A stretch of 61,525 nt of DNA from Anabaena subtropica FACHB-260 (GTDB taxonomy: Bacteria > Cyanobacteriota > Cyanobacteriia > Cyanobacteriales > Nostocaceae): contig NZ_JACJRF010000031.1 in NCBI RefSeq assembly GCF_014697105.1, forward strand, positions 1 to 61,525. The letters are read 5' to 3'. Shown here piece by piece: positions 97 through 31,271 of the stretch (the first letter of the stretch is position 1; every line of letters begins with the position of its first letter). A model generated the notes under the pieces. That model saw only the letters and a program-made list of their open reading frames with translations, made no database searches and had not been told where the DNA came from. The position numbers were made by a program, and so were the translations under genes.

Positions 97-1932
97 CTAA
101 GGTATTGACTCAAGCAACCTGTTTAAACGCTCTGGGTTCCAAATTTCCTCTGCAATCTTTTGATAAAGCTTTTGCCGTGCGTCCAAATCAGCTTTTTTAA
201 ATTCCTTATGAGGCTGAAACAGTAGCCCAGAGCGTTCCTTATATCTCAAAAAACCTGGATTATGGTCATAACATTGAGAATTAAGTGATTGAGCTAAAAG
301 ATTCTGACCGTAGTAATGAGGTAGTTTGTCAGCGTAAGGCAAGTCACCATAACTAGCATTAAATGACTTCGGCAGCAGTAACAATCCCCCAATACGGTTA
401 CGATACTCATAGAAATCTGCACTACTGGAAAACTCATCTGAGTGACGCTGGTGTTTATTTGCCCAAATATGCTCTACCTCATATCGAGTTTTACCAGTGG
501 CAATATATTCGCTATAACGTGATGGTATTCCCGATTGCGTTTCTATGTAATCTGTTATCCGAGCAAGGAATTGGTAAATAGCATTGTAGTTTTGCTGATG
601 CAGTAGCAGTCGTTCATTAGAAGCAAAAACTTCTGGTTCTGCATCTAACTTCTGCCGCATAATCGTTACAAGTTCAGTCGGTGCTTTCCCCCGAATATCC
701 CGCATAACCACAAACATGGCATACTGCATCGTGTTGTATGTAATGGTTCGGAAATTCCATAACCTCCGAGCAAGCAGAATATCAAGAAAACTTGCCGCTA
801 AACGAATCTTTTGATTTATGATACCTGGGTCATCATCTGGATTTAAAGGTGCAAGCAGCAATGGATATTGAAGGGTAAAACCGTGCTGTGCATTGTAGAA
901 AACTTCCTCTAACCCTGGTTTCAAGGAAATCGATGCTTCCCGCAACTGTAAGTATTGGCGACTATAAAATGCAAAATCTCGCTCTATGAAGCGCACAAAA
1001 TCAGCATTTTTGTTGAGTCCCATTTTCAGCTTATGGTCACGTACCCAACGGTGAAACTCTGTACTGATGCGGTCAAAGTCACCAGGGACAGCACCTTTTT
1101 TACGTTCCCGAATTGTCTGGGCGTACTGACTGCGAAGCCAAGTTTTAATCGCATCGGCTTCTTCATCTTTACCCAACTCTATCAATTCACTTACACGCTT
1201 TTTCCAAAGCTGATTCGCCTGAACCTTTTTAGCTTCATCACTGATATTCGCCAGCAAAAAGCCTTTAAGCATATCCGTAGGTGAAAGAGATAGCCCTCGG
1301 TCATTCATCGTTTCAAAAATGGTATAGGCATCCTCATCGGAGTAAGCTGTAATCTCAACGATGTGGACGTTCTCTATCAACCAGTCTATAAAGTAGGGTA
1401 AAGCTTCTTTAGTTAAATCTTGTGGGAAATATTCTTTAATATTGGCATAACGCGCAACAATATTCTTTACTGACTCTGGTTGATCGGTGTCATCAAAAGA
1501 AACGTTATTGAAGAGAGCTTCCATGCAAGCATTACGCTCTTCAACATCTAAATTAAAGGATTTTTTCCGATGCCTTTCGGAGAAAATTAAGTCGTCGAGT
1601 TTTACTTTGTCGGGGCGATCTTTTTGAAGATTATGCAGAAAAATTAGTAATAGAGATAAGGTAGTGAGGCGTTGCTGTCCATCAATAATGAATTTCTTTA
1701 TTTCTTTCTGGCTAACAATAATTGACCCCAAGAAATAATGCCCGTAATTTTCAATGGCTTCTGGTTCATGACTCGGATCAAAATCATTAAGGAATTTCCC
1801 GGCTAGGTCTTCCAGCAGTTCTTGAACCTGTTTGGGTTCCCACTTATATTCTCTTTGGTAATAGTCGATAGCGTATTTATTACCACTGAGCAGTTGACGA
1901 ATAGTTTTAGCATCACCCCGAATTTCTTTCAT
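97..1932 (-). CDS. DUF262/DUF1524 (GmrSD-like) restriction protein
   Basis: The N-terminal half is a DUF262 domain with the diagnostic IDGQQRLTTL motif near residue 80, a ParB/Srx-like nucleotide-binding fold. The C-terminal half has DUF1524 with YEVEHIWA, an HNH/His-Me finger-type nuclease centre, followed by NRIGGLLLLP. The architecture is that of single-chain GmrSD type IV restriction enzymes, which cleave modified DNA. I start at the ATG at 1932 (611 aa) rather than 13 codons upstream: a GAGGAAA Shine-Dalgarno lies just before it, inside the last codons of hsdM, and the gap to the hsdM stop is only 4 bases, so the two are translationally linked. It is cargo of the transposon. That it restricts foreign DNA together with HsdM is inference. 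Confidence 0.85.
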   Translation of the reverse strand: MKEIRGDAKTIRQLLSGNKYAIDYYQREYKWEPKQVQELLEDLAGKFLNDFDPSHEPEAIENYGHYFLGSIIVSQKEIKKFIIDGQQRLTTLSLLLIFLHNLQKDRPDKVKLDDLIFSERHRKKSFNLDVEERNACMEALFNNVSFDDTDQPESVKNIVARYANIKEYFPQDLTKEALPYFIDWLIENVHIVEITAYSDEDAYTIFETMNDRGLSLSPTDMLKGFLLANISDEAKKVQANQLWKKRVSELIELGKDEEADAIKTWLRSQYAQTIRERKKGAVPGDFDRISTEFHRWVRDHKLKMGLNKNADFVRFIERDFAFYSRQYLQLREASISLKPGLEEVFYNAQHGFTLQYPLLLAPLNPDDDPGIINQKIRLAASFLDILLARRLWNFRTITYNTMQYAMFVVMRDIRGKAPTELVTIMRQKLDAEPEVFASNERLLLHQQNYNAIYQFLARITDYIETQSGIPSRYSEYIATGKTRYEVEHIWANKHQRHSDEFSSSADFYEYRNRIGGLLLLPKSFNASYGDLPYADKLPHYYGQNLLAQSLNSQCYDHNPGFLRYKERSGLLFQPHKEFKKADLDARQKLYQKIAEEIWNPERLNRLLESIP

Positions 1933-1936
1933 AATG

Positions 1937-4063
1937 CTATTTTTCCTCGCTAACAATCTGGCGTAAAACACCTTCTGTTTCTGCTTCTAAAGCAAAGATA
2001 TCTGCGGCTATTTCTTCCAAACTCCGCAACGGTTTGAACTTATAAAAATATTTAGTAAAAGAAATTTCATAACCCCTGACCGTTTTCTCGTAATCTATCC
2101 AAGCATCTGGTACATGAGGTAGCACTTCACGAGCAAAATACTCGTCAATATCTTCCTTCAATGGCACATTCTCTGTATCTCGCAATTCAGAATCAGGCTC
2201 ATAAGTTACTGCATCTTTAGTTTTTTTCTTAATTACAGGTTCCGCCGTTTCGTCTTTCTCTGTGAATGTGTCATAAACTAACTTAAACTCTTTAGCAGTT
2301 AGTTTAAGTTCTTTCGCCTTCAGTGCTTTTTCAAATTCTTGCTTAACTCGATTAAAATCTTTGTGAGGTTCGCTGCCAAACAAGTCTTTTAATATCCCCA
2401 AAATTACACCATTTTTTGTAGCCGAGGTGATATTTAGTGGTATTTCCTGTTGTCCTACACTACTTGTGTTAGTAGATGAAGTAGTAGGACTTGTTCCTAG
2501 AAACTGCGCTACTTGTTCAGGTGTAACTTGAAAAGTTAACCTTAAAGGACGGTCAACAGTAATTTTATGATAACCAAAATCTTCGTTATCAAAAATTTTA
2601 GACTGTTCTGTTTCTTCAAACGCTAAAAATGTTTCTGTAATTCGCTGAATATCTGCTTGTGTTAGCTCACAATTTTTCTTACCTAAATTTTTTCTTAACT
2701 TGCCATACCATTCAGTGGCATCAATTAACTGTACCTTGCCTCGACGCTGTTCAGGTTTGCGATTAGACAGCACCCAAATATAAGTAGCAATACCCGTGTT
2801 ATAAAACATATTCAAAGGTAAGCCGATGATGCACTCTAACCAATCATTTTCAATAATCCAGCGACGAATATTACTTTCCCCGCCACCTGCATCACCAGTA
2901 AATAAAGCTGAACCATTATGAACAATTGCTATTCGACTACCCAAGGTAGTGGACTGCTTCATTTTAGAAAGCATATTCACCAAAAATAACAATTGACCGT
3001 CACTGCTACGAGGTAACAAAGTCAGCTTTTCTCCTGGTTTTAACCCAGGATGTTCTACAGCAAAACGGGGGTCTTTAACTTCCTTCTTTTTGCCATCAAA
3101 CACAGCTTCTTGGTCTACAGTCCAAGACTTGCCATAGGGAGGATTAGCAAGCATAAAGTCGAACTGTAAATCAGCAAACTTGTCATGAGAAATTGTTGAA
3201 CCAAACCAAATTTTTTCCGGGTCACGACCCTTAATCAACATATCCGACTTACAAATGGCGTATGTTTCTGGGTTAACTTCCTGCCCATATAACTCGATTG
3301 TGACTTTTTTCGCTGATTTTTCGACAAGATGTTGAATAAATGCTTCTGATTCTGTCAACATCCCCCCAGAACCACAAGCGTCATCATATACCAAATAAGT
3401 ACCACCTTGAATCTGATTTTCAACTGGCAGAAATATCAAATTCACCATTAACTGAATAATGTCACGAGGGGTGAAGTGTTCCCCCGCTTCTTCGTTATTC
3501 TCTTCGTTAAACTTGCGGATTAATTCCTCGAACACAGAACCCATGCCCAGGTTAGTTAATCCCTCATGAATAATCTCACCCTTTTCATTTTTAACTGCTT
3601 CAGAACTAAGGTTAATTTCCTTAGCAACAAATTTTTGAATTAGAGCATAAAGCCGATTACTTTCTACTAAAGTCTCAATTTGATTTCGCAGTTTAAACTT
3701 AGCAATAATCTCTTGTACGTTCTCGCTAAAACCATTTAAATAATTTTCAAAATTTGCCCGAATATCGCTAGGAAAATCGAGCAAGGTTTTAAAAGTAAAT
3801 TGAGAAGTATTATAAAATACATAACCCGTTACTCTAGGAAGCTGTTGCGCTATGGCATTTTGTCCGAAATTGCCTTCTTCCAGCCGCTTATAAAGTTCAA
3901 GTACCTTATCTTTAGTAGGTTCTAATAAGCAATCCAAACGCCGTAGTACCGTCATTGGCAGAATGACATCTCGGTACTTACCGCGTACATAGACATCTCT
4001 CAATACATCGTCGGCAATACTCCAGATAAAGTTAACAATAGTGTTGTGTGTCGTGTAATTCAT
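1937..4063 (-). CDS. hsdM: Type I restriction-modification DNA methyltransferase subunit
   Basis: A 708-aa N6-adenine methyltransferase. The N-terminal helical HsdM_N domain (about residues 8-140) is followed by the N6_Mtase domain with the SAM-binding motif DACGSGG near residue 228 and the catalytic motif IV NPPYGKSW near residue 306. The C-terminal 150 residues are the charged, helical tail typical of long HsdM proteins. The enzyme needs an HsdS specificity subunit to recognise DNA; neither hsdS nor hsdR is in the window, so they may lie upstream of position 1 or be absent. It follows the MerR regulator gene on the same strand after 80 bases and is followed 4 bases later by the DUF262 gene. 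It is transposon cargo. Confidence 0.93.
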   Translation of the reverse strand: MNYTTHNTIVNFIWSIADDVLRDVYVRGKYRDVILPMTVLRRLDCLLEPTKDKVLELYKRLEEGNFGQNAIAQQLPRVTGYVFYNTSQFTFKTLLDFPSDIRANFENYLNGFSENVQEIIAKFKLRNQIETLVESNRLYALIQKFVAKEINLSSEAVKNEKGEIIHEGLTNLGMGSVFEELIRKFNEENNEEAGEHFTPRDIIQLMVNLIFLPVENQIQGGTYLVYDDACGSGGMLTESEAFIQHLVEKSAKKVTIELYGQEVNPETYAICKSDMLIKGRDPEKIWFGSTISHDKFADLQFDFMLANPPYGKSWTVDQEAVFDGKKKEVKDPRFAVEHPGLKPGEKLTLLPRSSDGQLLFLVNMLSKMKQSTTLGSRIAIVHNGSALFTGDAGGGESNIRRWIIENDWLECIIGLPLNMFYNTGIATYIWVLSNRKPEQRRGKVQLIDATEWYGKLRKNLGKKNCELTQADIQRITETFLAFEETEQSKIFDNEDFGYHKITVDRPLRLTFQVTPEQVAQFLGTSPTTSSTNTSSVGQQEIPLNITSATKNGVILGILKDLFGSEPHKDFNRVKQEFEKALKAKELKLTAKEFKLVYDTFTEKDETAEPVIKKKTKDAVTYEPDSELRDTENVPLKEDIDEYFAREVLPHVPDAWIDYEKTVRGYEISFTKYFYKFKPLRSLEEIAADIFALEAETEGVLRQIVSEEK

Positions 4064-4143: not shown

Positions 4144-4599
4144 TTAATTTTTCTCTAACTTTTGACGCAACTGCTGATAAATCACGTCCAGCCAAACGGG
4201 AATCACAGGCTTACCTTCATCTAAAGATGCGATCGCCTTCGTTCTGTCATACTCCATTAGTGCAAGCGATACCTTTGGCACACCTAACGGTGAACGCTCC
4301 TGTGCTTCTAACAACAACATGAAGCGTTTACCTGTACCAGAACTAAATAACTCTGGTTCTTCGTCTCTCAGAGTTTTCAAGGTTTCGCAAGCGATATCAA
4401 AACTCAAACCTACAGACAGCCAATATACCATAGCTGCCAGCTCTACTAAATTGGTTTTTGAGTAATAAATACTACGCCCTATACCCGTATCACTAATGAC
4501 AGGAATTACCACCCCTTTTTCTCGCCAATACTGGAGTTGACGGAGTGTACAACCTGTAATTTGAGATGCTTCCTTACTTGTAAAAAATGTCTCCTGCAT
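4144..4599 (-). CDS. cvkR: MerR-type regulator of the CAST (CvkR-like)
   Basis: A 151-aa protein with an N-terminal MerR-type winged helix-turn-helix (FTSKEASQITGCTLRQLQYW, residues 6-25) and a short C-terminal dimerisation/effector part without metal-binding cysteines of the classic type. It is divergent from cas12k, with 69 bases between the start codons. Published work on an Anabaena CAST describes a MerR-type repressor, CvkR, in exactly this place, which represses cas12k and accessory CAST genes. The intergenic region here holds a strong inverted repeat (4623-4652) suited to a dimeric repressor. hsdM follows on the same strand, so cargo transcription may be linked to it. Confidence 0.88.
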   Translation of the reverse strand: MQETFFTSKEASQITGCTLRQLQYWREKGVVIPVISDTGIGRSIYYSKTNLVELAAMVYWLSVGLSFDIACETLKTLRDEEPELFSSGTGKRFMLLLEAQERSPLGVPKVSLALMEYDRTKAIASLDEGKPVIPVWLDVIYQQLRQKLEKN

Positions 4600-6585: not shown

Positions 6586-6616
6586 TTGACAAAACACCGA
6601 ACCTTGACAATAAAAT
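6586..6616 (+). promoter_or_regulatory. Candidate promoter of the tracrRNA
   Basis: TTGACA at 6586-6591 begins directly after the cas12k stop codon, and AT-rich -10-like hexamers (AATAAA or TAAAAT) lie 17 to 19 bases further on. This would start transcription near 6622-6628, where similarity to known V-K tracrRNAs begins. A second TTGACA at 6604-6609 is an alternative -35 element. No transcript data are available. Confidence 0.4.
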
Positions 6617-6623
6617 AAGGAAA

Positions 6624-6858
6624 TTCAACAGCGCCGCAGTTCATGCTTGTTACAAGCCTCTGTGCTGTGTAAGTTTGGGTTAGTTTGACTGCTGTTAAAC
6701 AGTCTTGCTTTCTGACCCTGGTAGCTGCCCACCTTGATGCTGCTGTTCCTTGAGGACAGGAATAAGGTGCGCCCCCAGTAATAGAGGTGCGGGTTTACCG
6801 CAGTGGTGGCTACTGAATCACCTCCGATCAAGGAGGAACCCACCTTAATTATTTTTTT
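6624..6858 (+). ncRNA. tracrRNA of the type V-K CAST
   Basis: The segment follows the known V-K tracrRNA layout: AGCGCCGCAGTTCATGC at its start, then GGGTTAGTTTGACTG with a paired stem and CTTGCTTTCTGACCCTGG, GTAGCTGC, a run ending in GGTGCGC, CAGTGGTGGCTACTGAATCA and CCTCCGATCAAGGAGG. These blocks are nearly the same as in the ShCAST tracrRNA. The 3' anti-repeat AACCCACCTT lies at 6837-6846 and a T-rich stretch follows at 6850-6858, a likely end. Exact ends are estimated. An open reading frame on the opposite strand over this RNA is a shadow. Confidence 0.93.
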
Positions 6859-7046
6859 GGCGAATCGAAGCGGGGTCAATTTTCCTGGGGATTCTGCCAA
6901 AAGTTCAAATCGCTTATCTAGTGAGGTTCATAGCCTTTAAAGTGTCAGTTAATTTACTTTTTTGAGTGTTGACTGATGAGCGATTTTGGGAGACATGGCA
7001 AAAATGCTTTTAGAACTATTGGCAAGCCAAGGGTTTGAGGTGCAGA

Positions 7047-7304
7047 GTTTCAACGCCCCTCCCAGCTAGAGGCGGGTTGAAAGCTGATGCCTTGCGATTT
7101 TACTTAGCAGCCAATACCTGTTTCAACGCCCCTCTCAGATAGAAGCGGGTTGAAAGAACGTATAAAGTGGTCAATTGTTGATTGTGATGGCGAGTTTCAA
7201 CGCCCCTCCCAGATAGAGGCGGGTTGAAAGATTCGAGTTAGTCAGTTAATAAATCAATTAAATTTGAGTTTCAAAAGCAATGTCAGAGTAAGGTGGGTTG
7301 GAAG
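7047..7304 (+). CRISPR. Type V-K CRISPR array: three canonical repeats and one degenerate terminal repeat
   Basis: Repeats of 37 bases lie at 7047-7083, 7120-7156 and 7194-7230. They begin GTTTCAACGCCCCTC and end GCGGGTTGAAAG, with two or three substitutions among copies. Spacers are 7084-7119 (36 nt), 7157-7193 (37 nt) and 7231-7267 (37 nt, very AT-rich). A fourth, degenerate repeat at 7268-7304 keeps GTTTCAA at the start and GGGTTGGAAG at the end but differs in its middle. The array has the same orientation as cas12k and the tracrRNA. I found no target in this window for the first three spacers. Confidence 0.95.
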
Positions 7305-7321
7305 ATGGGGCAGATTGAGAA
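7268..7321 (+). other. Degenerate repeat plus homing spacer directed at mutS
   Basis: The degenerate repeat (7268-7304) is followed by ATGGGGCAGATTGAGAA (7305-7321), identical over 17 nt to the mutS coding strand at 7593-7577. The next base differs (T against A). A short guide of about 17-20 nt behind a divergent repeat is the known form of self-homing guides in type V-K CASTs. It reads outward, toward the transposon end that adjoins its own target. Confidence 0.92.
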
Positions 7322-7465
7322 TAGAAAAGTTGAACACAACGTGAGTTTTAAAAGCTGTGTTATCGTGTGCCAAGTTTTATACATTACACAACACATCACG
7401 TTGAAAAGTTTAATGAGATTATTTTCTTAATAGTTAGTCAACACAATTTGAAAACAAAAAATTGT

Positions 7466-7535
7466 TAATATGGACATTAATTAATTAAAATTGACATTAA
7501 TTTGTTAACAGTGACAAATAATTAGTTAATGTACA
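7466..7535. repeat. Array-proximal transposon end with TnsB-type binding repeats
   Basis: Read inward on the minus strand, the end begins TGTACATTAACTAATTA and continues with TTTGTCAC. Two further copies of a TTAA(C)AAATTAATGTC-like motif follow, with GTCA/GTCC cores near 7511-7514, 7491-7495 and 7473-7476. The terminal TGTACA is at 7530-7535. Terminal TGTACA plus internal GTCA repeats is the pattern of V-K CAST ends. The base at 7536 and those after it belong to the target, and insertion should have duplicated about 5 bp beginning there. Confidence 0.88.
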
Positions 7536-7536
7536 G

Positions 7537-10101
7537 CTAAAGACCTTCACGCAATCCCATTGCAATCTTACTATGTTTCTCAATCTGCCCCATGACTTGT
7601 TTTGCCCGTTGAATGACCACGGCTGGTAAACCCGCTAACCGTCCTGCTTCGATACCATAGGATTTATCAGCGCCGCCTGGTTGGACTTGGTGCAGAAAGA
7701 TAATTTGGTCTGGTAATTCTTTGACTGTGACTTGATAATTAGCCACATTGGGTAACATTCCCGCCAGTTCGTTTAATTCGTGGTAATGGGTAGCAAAAAT
7801 GGTGCGGGAACGAATTTCGGTGGCGAGATATTCTGCTACCGCCCACGCAATAGAAAGACCGTCAAAAGTTGCGGTTCCTCTACCAATTTCATCTAGTAAA
7901 ACTAAGGATCTAGATGTGGCATGATTGAGGATATTTGCTGTCTCATTCATTTCTACCATGAAGGTAGATTGACCAGTGGCTAAATCATCAACTGCACCAA
8001 CACGGGTAAAAATGCGATCGCATACTCCCAACCTAGCAGATTTAGCCGGCACAAAACTACCAATTTGTGCCATTAACTGAATTAATCCCACTTGACGCAG
8101 GTAACAACTTTTACCACTGGCGTTAGGCCCAGTCAGAATAATCAGGTCAGGAAGTGAAATGTTTTCTTCCCCACTCCCCAAATTAGTAGAATTTGGCACA
8201 AAGAAGCCGGCAGGTAAGGACTGTTCTACAACTGGATGACGACCATCCACAATTCCTATTTCGCGCCCATGCACCATTTCCGGACGACAGTAACCTTGAT
8301 GCACCGCCAACTCTGCTAAACCACACAACACATCGGCGGCGGCTACGGCGCGGGAAAGGTTGCGAATTACTTCCGCCTGTTCTCCTACCTTTTCCCGCAA
8401 CGCCACAAATACCTCATATTCTAATTTATGTAAATCATCCCGTGCTGTAAGAATCCTGGCTTCCCGTTCCTTCAGTTCTGGGGTGATGTAACGTTCCTCA
8501 TTCTTCAGGGTTTGTTTGCGGATATAATTAGCGGGTACTTGGTCAGCTTTGGCGCGGGAAATACTGATGTAATAACCGAAGGTTTCGTTAAATCCTACTT
8601 TGAGGAGTGGGATTCCCGTTCTCGCCCTTTCGTCCACTTCTAAATTAGCAATCCATTGGTGGTCTGCTTCTACCGTCGCCTTTCTCTCATCCAATAAAGG
8701 ATTCACCCCAGGACGAATCAAGCCGCCTTCTTTCAGGTGTAGTGGTGGTGTTTCTACTAAGTGAGCTTGTATATTTTGTGCCAATTCCTCTAAAATTGAC
8801 GGTACTTTTTGCAAAGCTTTGAGAAAAGGCGAACGAGTATTAACTACTAAACTCGCTAATTCTGGTAAACGGGAGAGAGAATCAGCTAAAGCAACTAAAT
8901 CTCTAGCATTCGCTGTTCCTGAACTTGCTCGTCCTGTGAGTCTTTCTAAGTCGTAAATTTGCCGTAATAAATGCCGTAAATCTTGACGTAGAGGGGTATT
9001 ATCTACTAGTTCTTGAATGGTGTCTTGGCGTGAGCAAATACCTTTAATATCGAGTAGCGGTTGTAACAACCATCGCCGCAAAGCCCGACTCCCCATTGCC
9101 GTGCTAGTTTTATCTAATGCCCAGAGTAAGGAACCGTGAAAAGTGCCATCACGGACTGTTTGCGTGATTTCTAGATTCCGGCGGGTTTGGTTATCAACTA
9201 TTAAATAATCGGTAATAGTGTAGGTGCGGAGTCTTTGGAGAGTAACGGGGCTAGTTTTTTGGGTATCTTCCACATACTCCAACAACCCCCCAGCAGCACG
9301 GACTGCTAAAGGGAGATTGTCGCAACCCAAACCTTCAAGCGATCGCACCTTAAATTTCTGTAATAATGTACTTCTAGCTTCGGCTTGGGAAAAAGGTAGT
9401 TGCGGCCGCAAACTATAACAAAATGATGGTGGTAAACATTCTGGTAAGTGGGGTGAAGTTTCCCCCGGACGCAGCAGTGTACCCAAATCAGGGGCGTTGG
9501 TAGGAACAAGCACCTCGGACGGTTGCAAGCGCATCAATTCTTGGGTGAGATGTTCTAAATCACTACCCTGAGTTGTGAGAAATTCCCCAGTGGAGATATC
9601 TGCATAAGCTAAACCCCAATGATTACCAGTAATTACTACAGCAGCTAGGTAATTATTGCGTCTGGAACTCAGCATTCCTTCTTCTAGCAAAGTTCCTGGG
9701 GTGAGGATGCGCGTCACCTCCCGACGCACCAAGCCCACCGCTTCAGAAGCATCTTCTACTTGGTCACAAATCACCACAGCGTAGCCCTTTTCCACCAGTT
9801 GGGTAGTGTAGCGTTCCCAAGCATGGTGAGGGACACCAGTCATTGCTACCCGTCCGACTTCACCACCATGTTTACTTGTCAGAACTAATTCCAATTCTCT
9901 AGCTACTGTGACAGCATCTTGAAAAAACGTTTCAAAAAAATCACCTACCCGATACAGCAACAACGCATGAGGATACTTATCTTTAACCTCCACATAGTGC
10001 TGATACATTTTACTCAGCTTAGTCCGGTCTACTAGTTGAGTGTTGGCGTGGGGTGTTGGGGGAGTATTCGGTTGCGTTGGCTGAATGTCAGAAGCGGTCA
10101 T
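7537..10101 (-). CDS. mutS: DNA mismatch repair ATPase MutS
   Basis: An 854-aa MutS1 protein that binds mismatches and small loops and starts repair with MutL. The mismatch-binding domain has the GDFFETF motif (Phe-X-Glu-type contact, near residue 53). The core and clamp follow, then the ATPase with Walker A GPNASGKS at residues 658-665, a Walker B region [11 protein letters not shown] and FATHYHEL. The length is normal and the C-terminus is complete. The stop codon is one base from the CAST end, so the insertion did not damage the gene. The last 20 codons contain the CAST homing target. There is no close operon partner. Confidence 0.97.
7577..7596 (-). other. Homing protospacer and PAM inside the 3' end of mutS
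   Basis: On the minus strand, GTC (7596-7594) precedes ATGGGGCAGATTGAGAA (7593-7577). GTN is the PAM reported for Cas12k systems. From the first protospacer base to the last base before the transposon end (7536) is 58 nt, close to the insertion spacing known for V-K elements (about 50-66 bp). Confidence 0.9.
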
Positions 10102-14396: not shown

Positions 14397-14948
14397 ATGA
14401 AATTATTTCCACAATTAGCACTTACTACTGCCATCTTGACGATAGGTTTTGCTACTGTAGGTACACAAATTACCTCTGCGGCAATTGTCAACTACTCTTT
14501 TAGTGTGGATAGTTCTACCAAGAAAGGGGAAGGCTTTTTTAGTTTTGATGACTCAATTTTTAGTAATGACAGTATTCCAGAAACTTTAGTACAGTCACTC
14601 TATTTCCAATTTGATGGTGACTCTACCGTTTACACAGAAAAAGATGATTTAGCCTACCCTTTCTTCCCTGTTGTTTTTTCAACTACATTTTTAACAGGAA
14701 AGCCAACTGTGGGATTAAGCTATTCGTTTTTAGATAAAACTAATCTCTCTGAACCCATAGTTTATGAAATCGTTGGTGATAATTTTACAATCCTTTCTGG
14801 AAGTTTTGCCAATACAGAAATTGACTTTGGTGGTGTAAATTATTCCCAAATACCTGAGCCTGCAACCTTGGGTGGTAGTCTGTTAACTTTTGGTCTTGGT
14901 TTGATGTTGAAAAAAAAGTCAACATCAATGAAAAAATCTAAAATTTAA
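14397..14948 (+). CDS. PEP-CTERM sorting domain protein
   Basis: A 183-aa secreted protein. Residues 1-29 form a signal peptide ending near TSAAI. The middle is a Ser/Thr/Asp-rich beta-type domain I cannot assign. The C-terminus has the sorting signal IPEPATLGG, a hydrophobic stretch (LLTFGLGLML) and a basic tail, recognised by exosortase-type systems. The start is the ATG at 14397 behind GGGAGAA; the frame extends upstream to a TTG that lacks such a site. A convergent inverted repeat follows. Confidence 0.85.
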   Translation: MKLFPQLALTTAILTIGFATVGTQITSAAIVNYSFSVDSSTKKGEGFFSFDDSIFSNDSIPETLVQSLYFQFDGDSTVYTEKDDLAYPFFPVVFSTTFLTGKPTVGLSYSFLDKTNLSEPIVYEIVGDNFTILSGSFANTEIDFGGVNYSQIPEPATLGGSLLTFGLGLMLKKKSTSMKKSKI

Positions 14949-27799: not shown

Positions 27800-29350
27800 A
27801 TGAACTCAGCACTCTCCACTCCCCAATCCTCAATCGATGTCATCGTTATTGGTAGCGGTATCGGTGGCTTATGTGCTGCTGGGTTGTTGGCACGTTATGG
27901 TAACCGGGTAACAGTGTGTGAAAGTCATACAATTCCCGGTGGTGCAGCCCATAGCTTTAGGCGGCGCGGATTTGAATTTGATTCTGGCCCCTCCTTTTAT
28001 TGTGGTTTGACTGACTCACAGAGTTTGAATCCTGTCAAGCAAGTTCTCGATGCCTTGGGTGAATCTCTCCAAGTTATACCCTATGATCCTCTAGGAAAAT
28101 ACCATTTTCCTGAAGGAACTGTTGCAGTCTATAGCAACACTGAAAAATACCTTCATGAAGTAGAGAAAATTACGCCCCAAGGTGCAAAAGAACTCCAGCA
28201 ATTCATAGAACGCTTGTTGGGGTTATATGATGCCATGAAAAATATTCCCACCTTAGCATTACGCTCAGACTGGCAGGTAATTTTAGTTTTATTACAACGT
28301 TACCTACTATCTTTGGGGCAAATGTTAGCTTACTTACCCTTGCTTCAGTCTTCTGTGGGTAATGTCATGGATGCGACAGTTAAAGACCCTTGGGTAAGAC
28401 GACTCATTGATTTAGAATGTTTTCTCCTTTCTGGCTTAAAAGCACAAGGCACAATTGCCCCAGAGGTGGCTTTTATGTTGGGGGAACGTTCCCGTGTCGG
28501 TGTGGAATATCCTGTGGGGGGTAGTGCGGCAATTGTTAATGCTTTGGTGCGGGGGTTGGAACGTTGGGGTGGTAAGTTACGTTTGGGATGTCACGTTGAG
28601 CAGATTTTGGTGGAAGGTGGTAAAGCTGTGGGTGTGAGGTTACAAAATGGGGAAATTCTCAACGCGCCTATAGTGATTTCTAATGCCACGATTTGGGATA
28701 CTTACAATCACCTGTTACGTCCTGAAGATTTGCCTGCTACTTACCGCCAAGATGCTTTAGATACAACAACTATAGAAAGTTTTATGCACCTGCATCTAGG
28801 CATCAAGGCAGATGGGTTAGAAAATTTAACAGGACATCATGTAGTAGTCCATGATTCTCATCAAGATATCACCATCCCAGGTAATACCTGCATGATTTCG
28901 ATTCCCAGTGTGTGGGATGCAACTCTTGCATCAGAGGGACATCATGTAGTTCATGCTTACACCCTCGAATCCTATGCAGGATGGGAACGGAATGATGAGT
29001 ATGAAGTGAAGAAAACAGAGAAAGCACAAACTTTATACCGTGCCTTAGAGCGTATTATCCCCGATATCAGGGAACGTGTAGTATTGGAACTCATCGGTAC
29101 ACCCTTGACTCATGCTCATTACCTACGCCGCCATCAGGGAACCTACGGCCCTGCAATTGCGGCTGGTCAGGGGATGTTTCCTAGTACACATACCCCAATT
29201 CAGGGTTTGTATCGGGTGGGTGATAGCACTATGCCGGGAATTGGTGTGCCAGCAGTAGCAGCTTCTGGTATTTTATGCGCTAATACTTTGGTGGAGCGAT
29301 CGCAAACAATAGAGTTATTAAATACCATAAAAAAAACTGGGAATACTTAA
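27800..29350 (+). CDS. CRTISO/CrtH-like FAD-dependent carotenoid isomerase or desaturase
   Basis: A 516-aa flavoprotein. Residues 13-40 form the Rossmann FAD site (VIVIGSGIGGLCAAGLLARYG), followed by the second motif CESHTIPGGAAHSFRRRGF. The C-terminal FAD motif is GLYRVGDSTMPGIGVPAVAASG. The family includes CrtH (prolycopene isomerase) and phytoene-desaturase-like proteins; the GPAIAAGQGMFPS region fits CRTISO relatives. The exact reaction is not decided by sequence. Its stop codon lies inside the hairpin of a strong terminator shared with ftsH. Confidence 0.8.
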   Translation: MNSALSTPQSSIDVIVIGSGIGGLCAAGLLARYGNRVTVCESHTIPGGAAHSFRRRGFEFDSGPSFYCGLTDSQSLNPVKQVLDALGESLQVIPYDPLGKYHFPEGTVAVYSNTEKYLHEVEKITPQGAKELQQFIERLLGLYDAMKNIPTLALRSDWQVILVLLQRYLLSLGQMLAYLPLLQSSVGNVMDATVKDPWVRRLIDLECFLLSGLKAQGTIAPEVAFMLGERSRVGVEYPVGGSAAIVNALVRGLERWGGKLRLGCHVEQILVEGGKAVGVRLQNGEILNAPIVISNATIWDTYNHLLRPEDLPATYRQDALDTTTIESFMHLHLGIKADGLENLTGHHVVVHDSHQDITIPGNTCMISIPSVWDATLASEGHHVVHAYTLESYAGWERNDEYEVKKTEKAQTLYRALERIIPDIRERVVLELIGTPLTHAHYLRRHQGTYGPAIAAGQGMFPSTHTPIQGLYRVGDSTMPGIGVPAVAASGILCANTLVERSQTIELLNTIKKTGNT

Positions 29351-29367
29351 GTACTCCCAGGTTTTTG
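29331..29367. terminator. Bidirectional terminator between crtH-like gene and ftsH
   Basis: CTGGGA at 29337-29342 pairs with TCCCAG at 29355-29360, with the near-palindromic TACTTAAGTA between them. An A-run precedes the stem and GTTTTT follows, so it works on either strand. The isomerase gene's TAA lies inside the hairpin. Confidence 0.85.
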
Positions 29368-29384
29368 TAGACAAAGCTTAACTA

Positions 29385-31271
29385 TTACAGTTGTGGTACA
29401 AACTGCTGTTTGTCTGGTACTTCGGTGTACTCAGCCACAATTTGACGAAATTCTTCGCCGTCGATGGTTTCTTTTTCAATCAATAAATCAACTATGCGAT
29501 CGGTGACGGTGCGATGTTCACGCATAATCTTCTTAGCGTTTTCATAGCATTCATCAACAATTAGCCGGACTTGAGAATCAATCCGCGCTGCAATTGATTC
29601 TGAATAATCTGATCTGGTCATCCAGTCACGACCTAAGAATACTTCTCCTTGTTGACTTTCCAAGGACAAGGGGCCTAAATCAGACATACCAAATCTTGTC
29701 ACCATTTGTCTAGCCATTCCTGACACCTGTTGCAAGTCTCCGCCTGCACCAGTGGTAACTTCAGCAGAACCAAAAATGATTTCTTCGGCTGCACGACCAC
29801 CCAAAGCGCCGGTGATTCTAGCTTTGAGTTGGGAACGGGAGATTAAACCTTGTTCTTCGTTGGGAGTAAACCAAGTTAAACCTTGGGCTTGTCCTCTAGG
29901 AATCAAGGTAACTTTCTGCACTGGGTCATGGTCTTTTAATAAAGTCCCAACCAAGGCGTGTCCGACTTCATGGTAAGCAATTAAGCGTTTGCTCTTGCTG
30001 TCTACTAGGGGTGTTCCTTCCATCCCTGCAACGACTCTATCTACCGCATCATCAATTTCGGTAAGAGTGATACCTTCTTTGCGTCTTCTGGCGGTGAGAA
30101 TTGCGGCTTCGTTGAGCAAGTTAGCCAAGTCTGCGCCTGTGAATCCTGGTGTGCGGCGGGCGATCGCTTCCAGTGATACGCTAGGATCTAATTTCTTATT
30201 CCGGGCGTGGACTTGCAGAACTTCCAAGCGTCCTTTGATATCTGGAGCATCAACGGTTACTTGTCTGTCAAAACGACCAGGACGCAGCAAGGCTGCATCT
30301 AATACGTCGGGACGGTTGGTAGCAGCAATAATAATGATGCCTGTGTTACCTTCAAAACCATCCATTTCGGTGAGTAACTGGTTGAGGGTTTGTTCTCTCT
30401 CATCGTTACCGCCACCGATACCTGCACCCCGTTGTCTACCAACCGCGTCGATTTCATCGATGAAGATGATACAGGGGGCGTTATCTTTAGCTTTTTTAAA
30501 CAAGTCACGAACGCGGGAAGCACCCACACCCACAAACATTTCCACAAATTCCGAACCGGAAATGCTAAAGAAGGGAACACCAGCTTCCCCAGCGATCGCT
30601 TTTGCTAGTAAAGTTTTACCAGTCCCTGGAGGCCCAACTAACAGCACACCTTTGGGAATCCGCGCACCCACAGCTGTAAATCTTTCTGGCTGTTTGAGGA
30701 ATGTAACGACTTCTTGTAGTTCTTCTTTTGCTTCTTCGATACCAGCTACATCGTCAAACTTTACCCCAGTCTTGGCTTCCATTTGGAAACGCGCTTTGGA
30801 TTTGCCAAAGTTCATGGCTTGACCAGGCCCACCAGGAAGATTGTTAGAACGACGGAACAAAAAGAACAATCCAGTTATCAATAAGATGGGAAACACTAGA
30901 TTACCCAACAATCCCCAGATAGCCCCATCATTACGGGCTGGATGAGCGTCAAAACTAACTTTCTTTTCTTTAAGCTTGCTGATTAACTCAGGAGCGTTAA
31001 CTGGCAAATCCACCCGCCAACGTTGGACACGATTTTCAATATCTTGATCTTGCGCTTCTACGATGGCTGTTCTCCCGCCTTCATAGAGATCCACGTTGGT
31101 AACACGTCCAGCCTCTACGTATTCTAAAAAGCGACCATAAGTCATGCGAGTGTTTGCTGCATTCTTACTCATGTCAGCAGGCGCGCCAGCAAACGTCCCT
31201 TGCCAGAAGAAAAAGCCAATTACCAAAGCTGGCAATGTCCAGAGTATTAGGACTCTCCAAGAGAATTTCAT
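29385..31271 (-). CDS. ftsH: ATP-dependent zinc metalloprotease FtsH, FtsH2 type
   Basis: A 628-aa thylakoid/plasma-membrane protease. Two membrane helices (about residues 5-23 and 118-140) flank a lumenal domain. The AAA module has Walker A GPPGTGKT at 213-220, Walker [13 protein letters not shown] and the SRH; HEVGH at 434-438 binds zinc. The sequence is nearly collinear with FtsH2 (Slr0228) of Synechocystis, which removes photodamaged D1. The C-terminus keeps the [14 protein letters not shown] tail. Confidence 0.97.

Follow-up and report, generated by a model that had tools for sequence, protein, structure and literature searches.

The window analysed here, the entire 61,525-nt contig C30 of Anabaena subtropica FACHB-260 (a 5.8-Mb genome in 104 contigs), carries the left part of a type V-K CAST, as judged by profile and sequence analysis. 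Taken together, the sequences argue that this element very probably uses the 3' end of mutS as its home address, that its anchor cassette probably passes between V-K lineages and that the element probably took part in a 22-kb inversion. The features on which this reading draws are as follows.

97-1971, minus strand: cargo, GmrSD-type (DUF262) restriction protein beside type I RM genes (Pfam GmrSD_N, GmrSD_C)
1937-4063, minus strand: cargo, HsdM-type methyltransferase (Pfam N6_Mtase, HsdM_N)
4144-4599, minus strand: MerR-type regulator adjoining cas12k, the CvkR position (Pfam MerR_1; placement according to PMC9938897)
4669-6585, plus strand: cas12k, 638 aa (NCBIfam V_Cas12k, E 5.7e-296)
6590-6860, plus strand: presumed tracrRNA region (by position; the corresponding G209 stretch is similar to the window and C52)
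7047-7083, plus strand: CRISPR repeat 1 (Rfam CRISPR-DR15, reported on the minus strand; repeat starts)
7120-7156, plus strand: CRISPR repeat 2 (Rfam CRISPR-DR15, repeat starts)
7194-7230, plus strand: CRISPR repeat 3 (Rfam CRISPR-DR15, repeat starts)
7268-7304, plus strand: degenerate anchor repeat, R* (sequence)
7305-7321, plus strand: 17-nt anchor (homing) spacer (exact mutS match)
7512-7535, minus strand: left transposon end with terminal TGTACA at 7530-7535 (identical 24 bases at the right end on C38)
7536-7540, no strand: GCTAA, the 5 bp next to the left end, absent from the right-end flank (sequence of both ends)
7577-7593, minus strand: protospacer in the mutS coding strand (spacer match)
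7594-7596, minus strand: PAM, GTC (sequence)
7537-10101, minus strand: mutS, intact, 854 aa (NCBIfam MutS equivalog, residues 30-841)
7536-29324, no strand: block inverted relative to G200, from mutS to a crtISO-like gene (G200 colinear with short gaps, in opposite orientation, beside rph)
27800-29350, plus strand: carotenoid isomerase-like (crtISO-like) gene whose 3' end departs from G201 and G211 near 29323 (TIGR02730 below cut-off; tails of 29 relatives; junction)

A V-K element whose anchor matches mutS

According to PMC9938897, a V-K element has a truncated repeat, usually a 17-nt anchor that matches the flank, a GTN PAM and 46-82 nt between PAM and left end, and the present element fits this plan in the features tested, except for its target and its flanks. 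Cas12k scores 982.9 bits against a cut-off of 150 (NF038191); a small DNA-binding regulator is divergent from cas12k (MerR_1, 4144-4599, minus strand); the three CRISPR-DR15 repeats form an array reading toward the left end; and the truncated repeat is followed by an anchor that matches the flank at 17/17 positions, with GTC as PAM and 58 nt to the end. TnsB, TnsC and TniQ are encoded at the right end, where Mu-transpos_C, TniB and TniQ score above their cut-offs and the rve profile slightly below its own. The usual anchor target, a tRNA gene, is replaced by mutS, but since PMC9938897 says "usually," a tRNA target is not strictly defining for V-K elements. The 5 bp flanking the two ends differ (GCTAA versus AATAT), but a missing duplication cannot be used to exclude V-K membership, since only 4 of the 14 elements scanned showed one (see below).

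The spacer at 7305-7321, ATGGGGCAGATTGAGAA, and positions 7577-7593 are exact reverse complements, and the PAM, GTC, occupies 7596-7594. The TGTACA end stops at 7535 and the mutS stop codon occupies 7537-7539, so that only base 7536 lies between them and the insertion sits one base past the stop, 58 nt from the PAM. A first-pass annotation had read the identity, the PAM and the spacing in the same way, and all three are borne out; its statement that the insertion spares the host gene likewise holds, mutS being intact and recognized as a MutS equivalog. Exact copies of the 17-mer in the 5.8-Mb genome are confined to the guide and mutS, and three further places match with 2 mismatches (the backwards control gave one match at ≤2 mismatches). 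By arithmetic, an exact 17-nt match would arise by chance within ~1 kb with a probability of ~1e-7. None of the 12 same-genus relatives showed a V-K end in the 117 nt behind the mutS stop codon.

The right end and probable inversion of a 22-kb block

The right end was located on contig C38 by TniQ and end-pattern searches. C38 reads, in order, rph, AATAT, TGTACATTAACTAATTATTTGTCA, tnsB, tnsC, tniQ, hsdR and a partial gene that we take to be hsdS-like. At 14515-14545 of locus L009, a repeat-like sequence, GTTCAACGCCCGTAGAAACGGGATGAATAC, lies at the contig end, adjoining the cut-off hsdS-like gene. In G209, a genome of the same genus, tnsB-tnsC-tniQ-hsdR-hsdS-GmrSD-hsdM-cas12k lie in a single contig that is 87-96% identical to C38 plus C30; because the gene order is the same, we treat C38 and C30 as one element of ~17 kb, with an unsequenced gap estimated from G209 at ~0.3 kb. 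The anchor of the G209 element targets tRNA-Arg.

The first-pass annotation had staked its reading beforehand on a duplication of GCTAA at the far end, and to the letter this prediction is refuted, the flank on C38 being AATAT. Synteny with G200, of the same genus, and a crtISO-like tail at the right end suggest that an inversion may be the reason. Behind rph, G200 carries the window in reverse, from 29331 to 7551. This stretch extends from the crtISO-like gene as far as the mutS end and is colinear but for a few short gaps, and ~0.8 kb separates rph from the crtISO-like gene. These two genes lie ≤1.5 kb apart in 5 of the 12 same-genus relatives; in the present genome, it is mutS, not the crtISO-like gene, that lies across the element from rph. 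Since the 22-kb block from mutS to the crtISO-like gene is in the opposite orientation in G200, the element appears to sit at an inversion breakpoint.

In line with this, the flank outside the right end reads, on the crtISO strand, ATATTCGGCAGTAA (ATATT CGG CAG TAA), and placed behind the window's ...GAGTTATTAA (TTATTA-A) it would encode ELLNIRQ-stop. The first bases of the joined tail agree with G201 (AATATTCTCCAG, tail DLLNILQKQ) at 10/12, a moderate support, because the tails of other relatives differ more; the supposed tail at the right end is short, at only 4-5 codons, and this part of the gene is variable from one relative to the next. In the window, the crtISO-like gene instead runs on toward the terminator of ftsH (29324-29385), its present neighbour. 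Of 172 other genomes with a match, the 29 that match best include 5 with rph near the crtISO-like gene but not one with ftsH there. The stretch at 29324 was also considered as another transposon end, wrongly, and the array spacers were rejected as guides for an insertion at the crtISO-like gene, matching at ≤12/17 with a GTN PAM in the window or L009.

Intramolecular replicative transposition from the mutS site, with the crtISO-like gene's 3' end, next to rph, as its target, would produce such a 22-kb inversion; recombination between two inverted element copies would be an alternative route. After the inversion, a single element would lie between mutS, to its left, and rph, to its right, with 5-bp flanks that do not match. 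The end search at ≤3 mismatches found no second copy where one would be expected, at the junction of the crtISO-like gene with the former neighbour of mutS; our guess is that it was lost by later deletion. Neither rph nor its surroundings on C38 were found in the 1.5 kb behind mutS in the 12 relatives, which have several different mutS neighbours, some of them common to two or more. This unstable gene order would also suit an inversion unrelated to the element, which would then just sit at the breakpoint, but that one breakpoint coincides with the transposon ends and that the right-end flank extends the crtISO-like reading frame make such a coincidence unlikely.

Probable homing to mutS and mutL in other genomes

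Cas12k matches were found in 141 of 217 genomes of the family, 121 of them above the curated cut-off (controls, 2/14, none above the cut-off). The anchor survey covered 85 loci: 68 regions behind Cas12k, chosen chiefly among the highest-ranking matches, together with this window, L007, L104 and 14 of 28 further loci, the other 14 having been left out as likely duplicates, judging by the lengths of their contigs. Anchors were present in 75, of which 65 target tRNA genes, 3 mutS, 3 mutL and 4 other sequences, and none was found in 10; the mutS share is biased upward, since this window and L104 (G019) entered the survey for their mutS, two tRNA-Leu targets were judged by hand (L096, which a group I intron adjoins, and L123, from likeness alone), and two G095 loci sharing one spacer may be a single element counted twice. 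That a protein-coding home site is unusual, as proposed at the outset, is thus supported by the 65 of 75 anchors directed at tRNA genes. Matches between anchor and target were 17/17 in 55 cases, 16/17 in 18 and 15/17 in 2. The four other targets (L092, L100, L149 and L191) could not be named as tRNA genes, mutS or mutL. Two of them fall within reading frames of no assigned name, and ~0.1 kb from the L100 target there is a match to a heterocyst sRNA, scoring at its cut-off.

A scan of the 217 genomes for the mutS spacer at ≤2 mismatches returned 6 genomes, 4 with exact matches and 2 with 2 mismatches (backwards control, 3 matches). The four exact genomes represent four genera, and in every one the spacer lies behind a repeat end and beside mutS, matching at 17/17 in the present genome (G000) and G156, 16/17 in G199 and 15/17 in G019. 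Cas12k-guided homing to mutS, proposed from this sequence alone, thus gains support from three more genomes in three other genera. In G156, G199 and G019, the distance from PAM to left end is 61 nt in each case. Between G000 and G156 the guide differs at one base (CAG/CAA), each version being identical to its own host's mutS, and the G019 spacer differs from its own mutS at 2 of 17 positions, both synonymous. The two matches with 2 mismatches, in G097 and G148, were rejected as anchors, agreeing at only 8/17 and 9/17 positions. A previous scan, of 388 genomes from the order, had matched 11, exactly only in G000, G019 and G156, with the rest near the control level (6 matches). Second tniQ-like stretches were seen in or near the elements of G156, G019 and G209 (L107, L105 and L211), which suggests nested or tandem elements.

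A corresponding scan for the mutL pattern returned 7 of the 217 genomes, 6 exact and 1 with one mismatch, and no control match. Five of the seven mutL-type anchors lie beside a mutL match, at 16/17 in G114 and G115 and 17/17 in G138, G141 and G150; the identity of MutL rests on NCBIfam in G150, on its C-terminal frame in both G115 and L185, the element of G141, and on the DNA match alone in G114 and G138. For the mutL-type spacers of G021 (L220) and G144 (L225), no mutL target was found within the 1.5 kb examined.

We propose that Cas12k with a short anchor crRNA would bind mutS and direct TniQ, TnsC and TnsB to an insertion site ~60 nt downstream, beyond the stop codon, so that the gene is spared. 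The coding-strand protospacer lies 40 nt from the stop-codon end in mutS and 7 nt in mutL, so that at a distance of ~60 nt from the PAM, an insertion would clear the end of the gene in both cases. A home site is likely to be a conserved gene end within reach, and the data suggest as a rule a conserved 17-nt stretch no more than ~60 nt from the gene end.

Probable exchange of anchor cassettes between lineages

A tree built from 47 Cas12k proteins needs four label changes to accommodate the four mutS elements, and the AU test on Cas12k rejects a single mutS clade (p 3.2e-4). It likewise rejects one clade for three mutL elements (p 3.1e-5); the remaining mutL-type loci, with no or too little Cas12k, stand outside the tree. 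The four mutS cassettes nevertheless resemble one another, at 0.74-0.85 identity over the 110 nt behind the spacer and ≤0.68 to any other; three of them adjoin a TGTACA end, and that of G156 a TGTCGA end. More broadly, the nearest-neighbour cassette has the same target type in 57 of 74 cases, near-copies included, against a shuffled mean of 7.3 and a maximum of 19. With a single mutS clade rejected on Cas12k but similar cassettes in all four mutS elements, the cassette appears to be handed from one lineage to another. We infer that recombination moves it, and that the degenerate repeat, the spacer and ~110 nt behind it would travel among V-K lineages as a unit.

The mutS cassettes might instead have arisen independently, since guides to one conserved motif would converge, and the mutL-type spacer of G021, whose surroundings are unrelated to those of other mutL cassettes (best 0.65), indicates that independent origin may happen. 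Against this, the 110 nt behind the mutS spacers are alike as well (0.74-0.85, against ≤0.68 elsewhere), and we consider independent origin quite improbable.

Element ends and target duplications

At ≤3 mismatches, a threshold that would miss more divergent ends, the 104 contigs contain two left ends (C30 and C52) and two right ends (C38 and C46), and the window itself only one. C52 (L007, 98-1181) carries a second V-K left end, at tRNA-Cys, with a 17/17 anchor and only the 3' part of cas12k; C46 (L016, 97-2788) has the other V-K right end, where tnsB is accompanied by a shortened tnsC frame that lies at the start of the contig. No pairing of right flanks (AATAT on C38, CAAGT on C46) with left flanks (GCTAA on C30, TTTAA on C52) gives a match. 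With two left and two right ends at hand, and divergent ends liable to be missed, the C38 right end could belong to another element, the true far end with its GCTAA duplication being unseen. The 87-96% identity of C38 plus C30 to the single G209 contig speaks against this, as does the apparently broken state of tnsC on C46 and cas12k on C52, each of which is, however, located where its contig begins, and we regard it as very improbable that C38 and C30 are parts of different elements.

How much weight the unmatched flanks can bear was judged from the 14 elements with the right side at hand, in a scan covering 900 bp before tnsB and listed end motifs. Matching 5-bp flanks were found in 4 (G129, G205, G154 and G150, the last at mutL), whereas 10, including the present element, had none; G158, with agreement at an inner site only, was not counted. 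Because absence is this common, through rearrangement or the limits of the scan, an absent duplication is weak evidence alone.

That the element landed untargeted behind mutS and copied its spacer from mutS later would suit both the high off-site insertion of V-K elements (PMC11406308) and the lack of a 5-bp duplication here, but the same PAM position 58-61 nt from the element in four genera, the 64 of 75 anchors lying 45-70 nt from the detected end and the matching duplication of the mutL element in G150 make this very unlikely.

Implications

V-K att sites are mostly tRNA genes and may differ even between close V-K relatives (PMC11406308). Non-tRNA homing is already known in general terms; home sites at mismatch-repair genes were not met in the literature searched, and mutS and mutL would add two such genes to those of V-K CASTs. 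The same literature yielded no case of Cas12k homing tied to mutS or mutL, though a prior mention is possible, and neither PMC9938897 nor PMC10293859 has the word "muts" in its main text. V-K transposition is replicative according to PMC11406308, which calls the handling of cointegrates in native hosts unknown; the inversion would be a natural trace of the fate, in such hosts, of replicative elements without TnsA.

Because homing keeps protospacer and PAM, nuclease-dead Cas12k could stay bound at mutS or mutL. The guide has the coding-strand sequence and so would pair with the template strand. One may speculate, at long odds, that Cas12k on the anchor crRNA, once MerR is relieved, might act as a roadblock on mutS or mutL transcription, lower mismatch repair and bring about a transient mutator state. 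mutS and mutL are the only protein genes that could be named among the anchor targets; were the roadblock real, this would reflect selection, not chance, and transposon activity would be tied to a transient mutator state.

Comparison with known systems

ShCAST, of Saito 2021, is reportedly a type V-K CAST that homes to tRNA genes. AnCAST is likewise a V-K CAST homing to a tRNA gene (PMC9938897). Like these two, the present element has Cas12k, a MerR regulator, an array, a truncated repeat with a 17-nt anchor spacer, a GTN PAM, its left end toward the target and TnsB-TnsC-TniQ at the right end; unlike them, its anchor matches the 3' end of mutS and its 5-bp flanks are unmatched. The C52 element of the same genome (L007) shares the identical 24-nt end and a 17/17 anchor, there with PAM GTG and 60 nt, but differs in targeting tRNA-Cys and in having only the 3' part of cas12k, at the contig start.

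Tn7 picks its site behind glmS through the protein TnsD, and type I-F3 elements use Cascade. The present element resembles both in having a home site behind a conserved gene that is left intact, and guide-directed homing is also described for type I-F3 CASTs (PMC11406308). With the SpyCI islands in mutL (PMC3430984) and a Vibrio mutS element (PMC5296598), it shares the placement of mobile DNA at mismatch-repair genes; unlike these, which reportedly alter mismatch repair, it leaves mutS intact and is targeted by a guide RNA.
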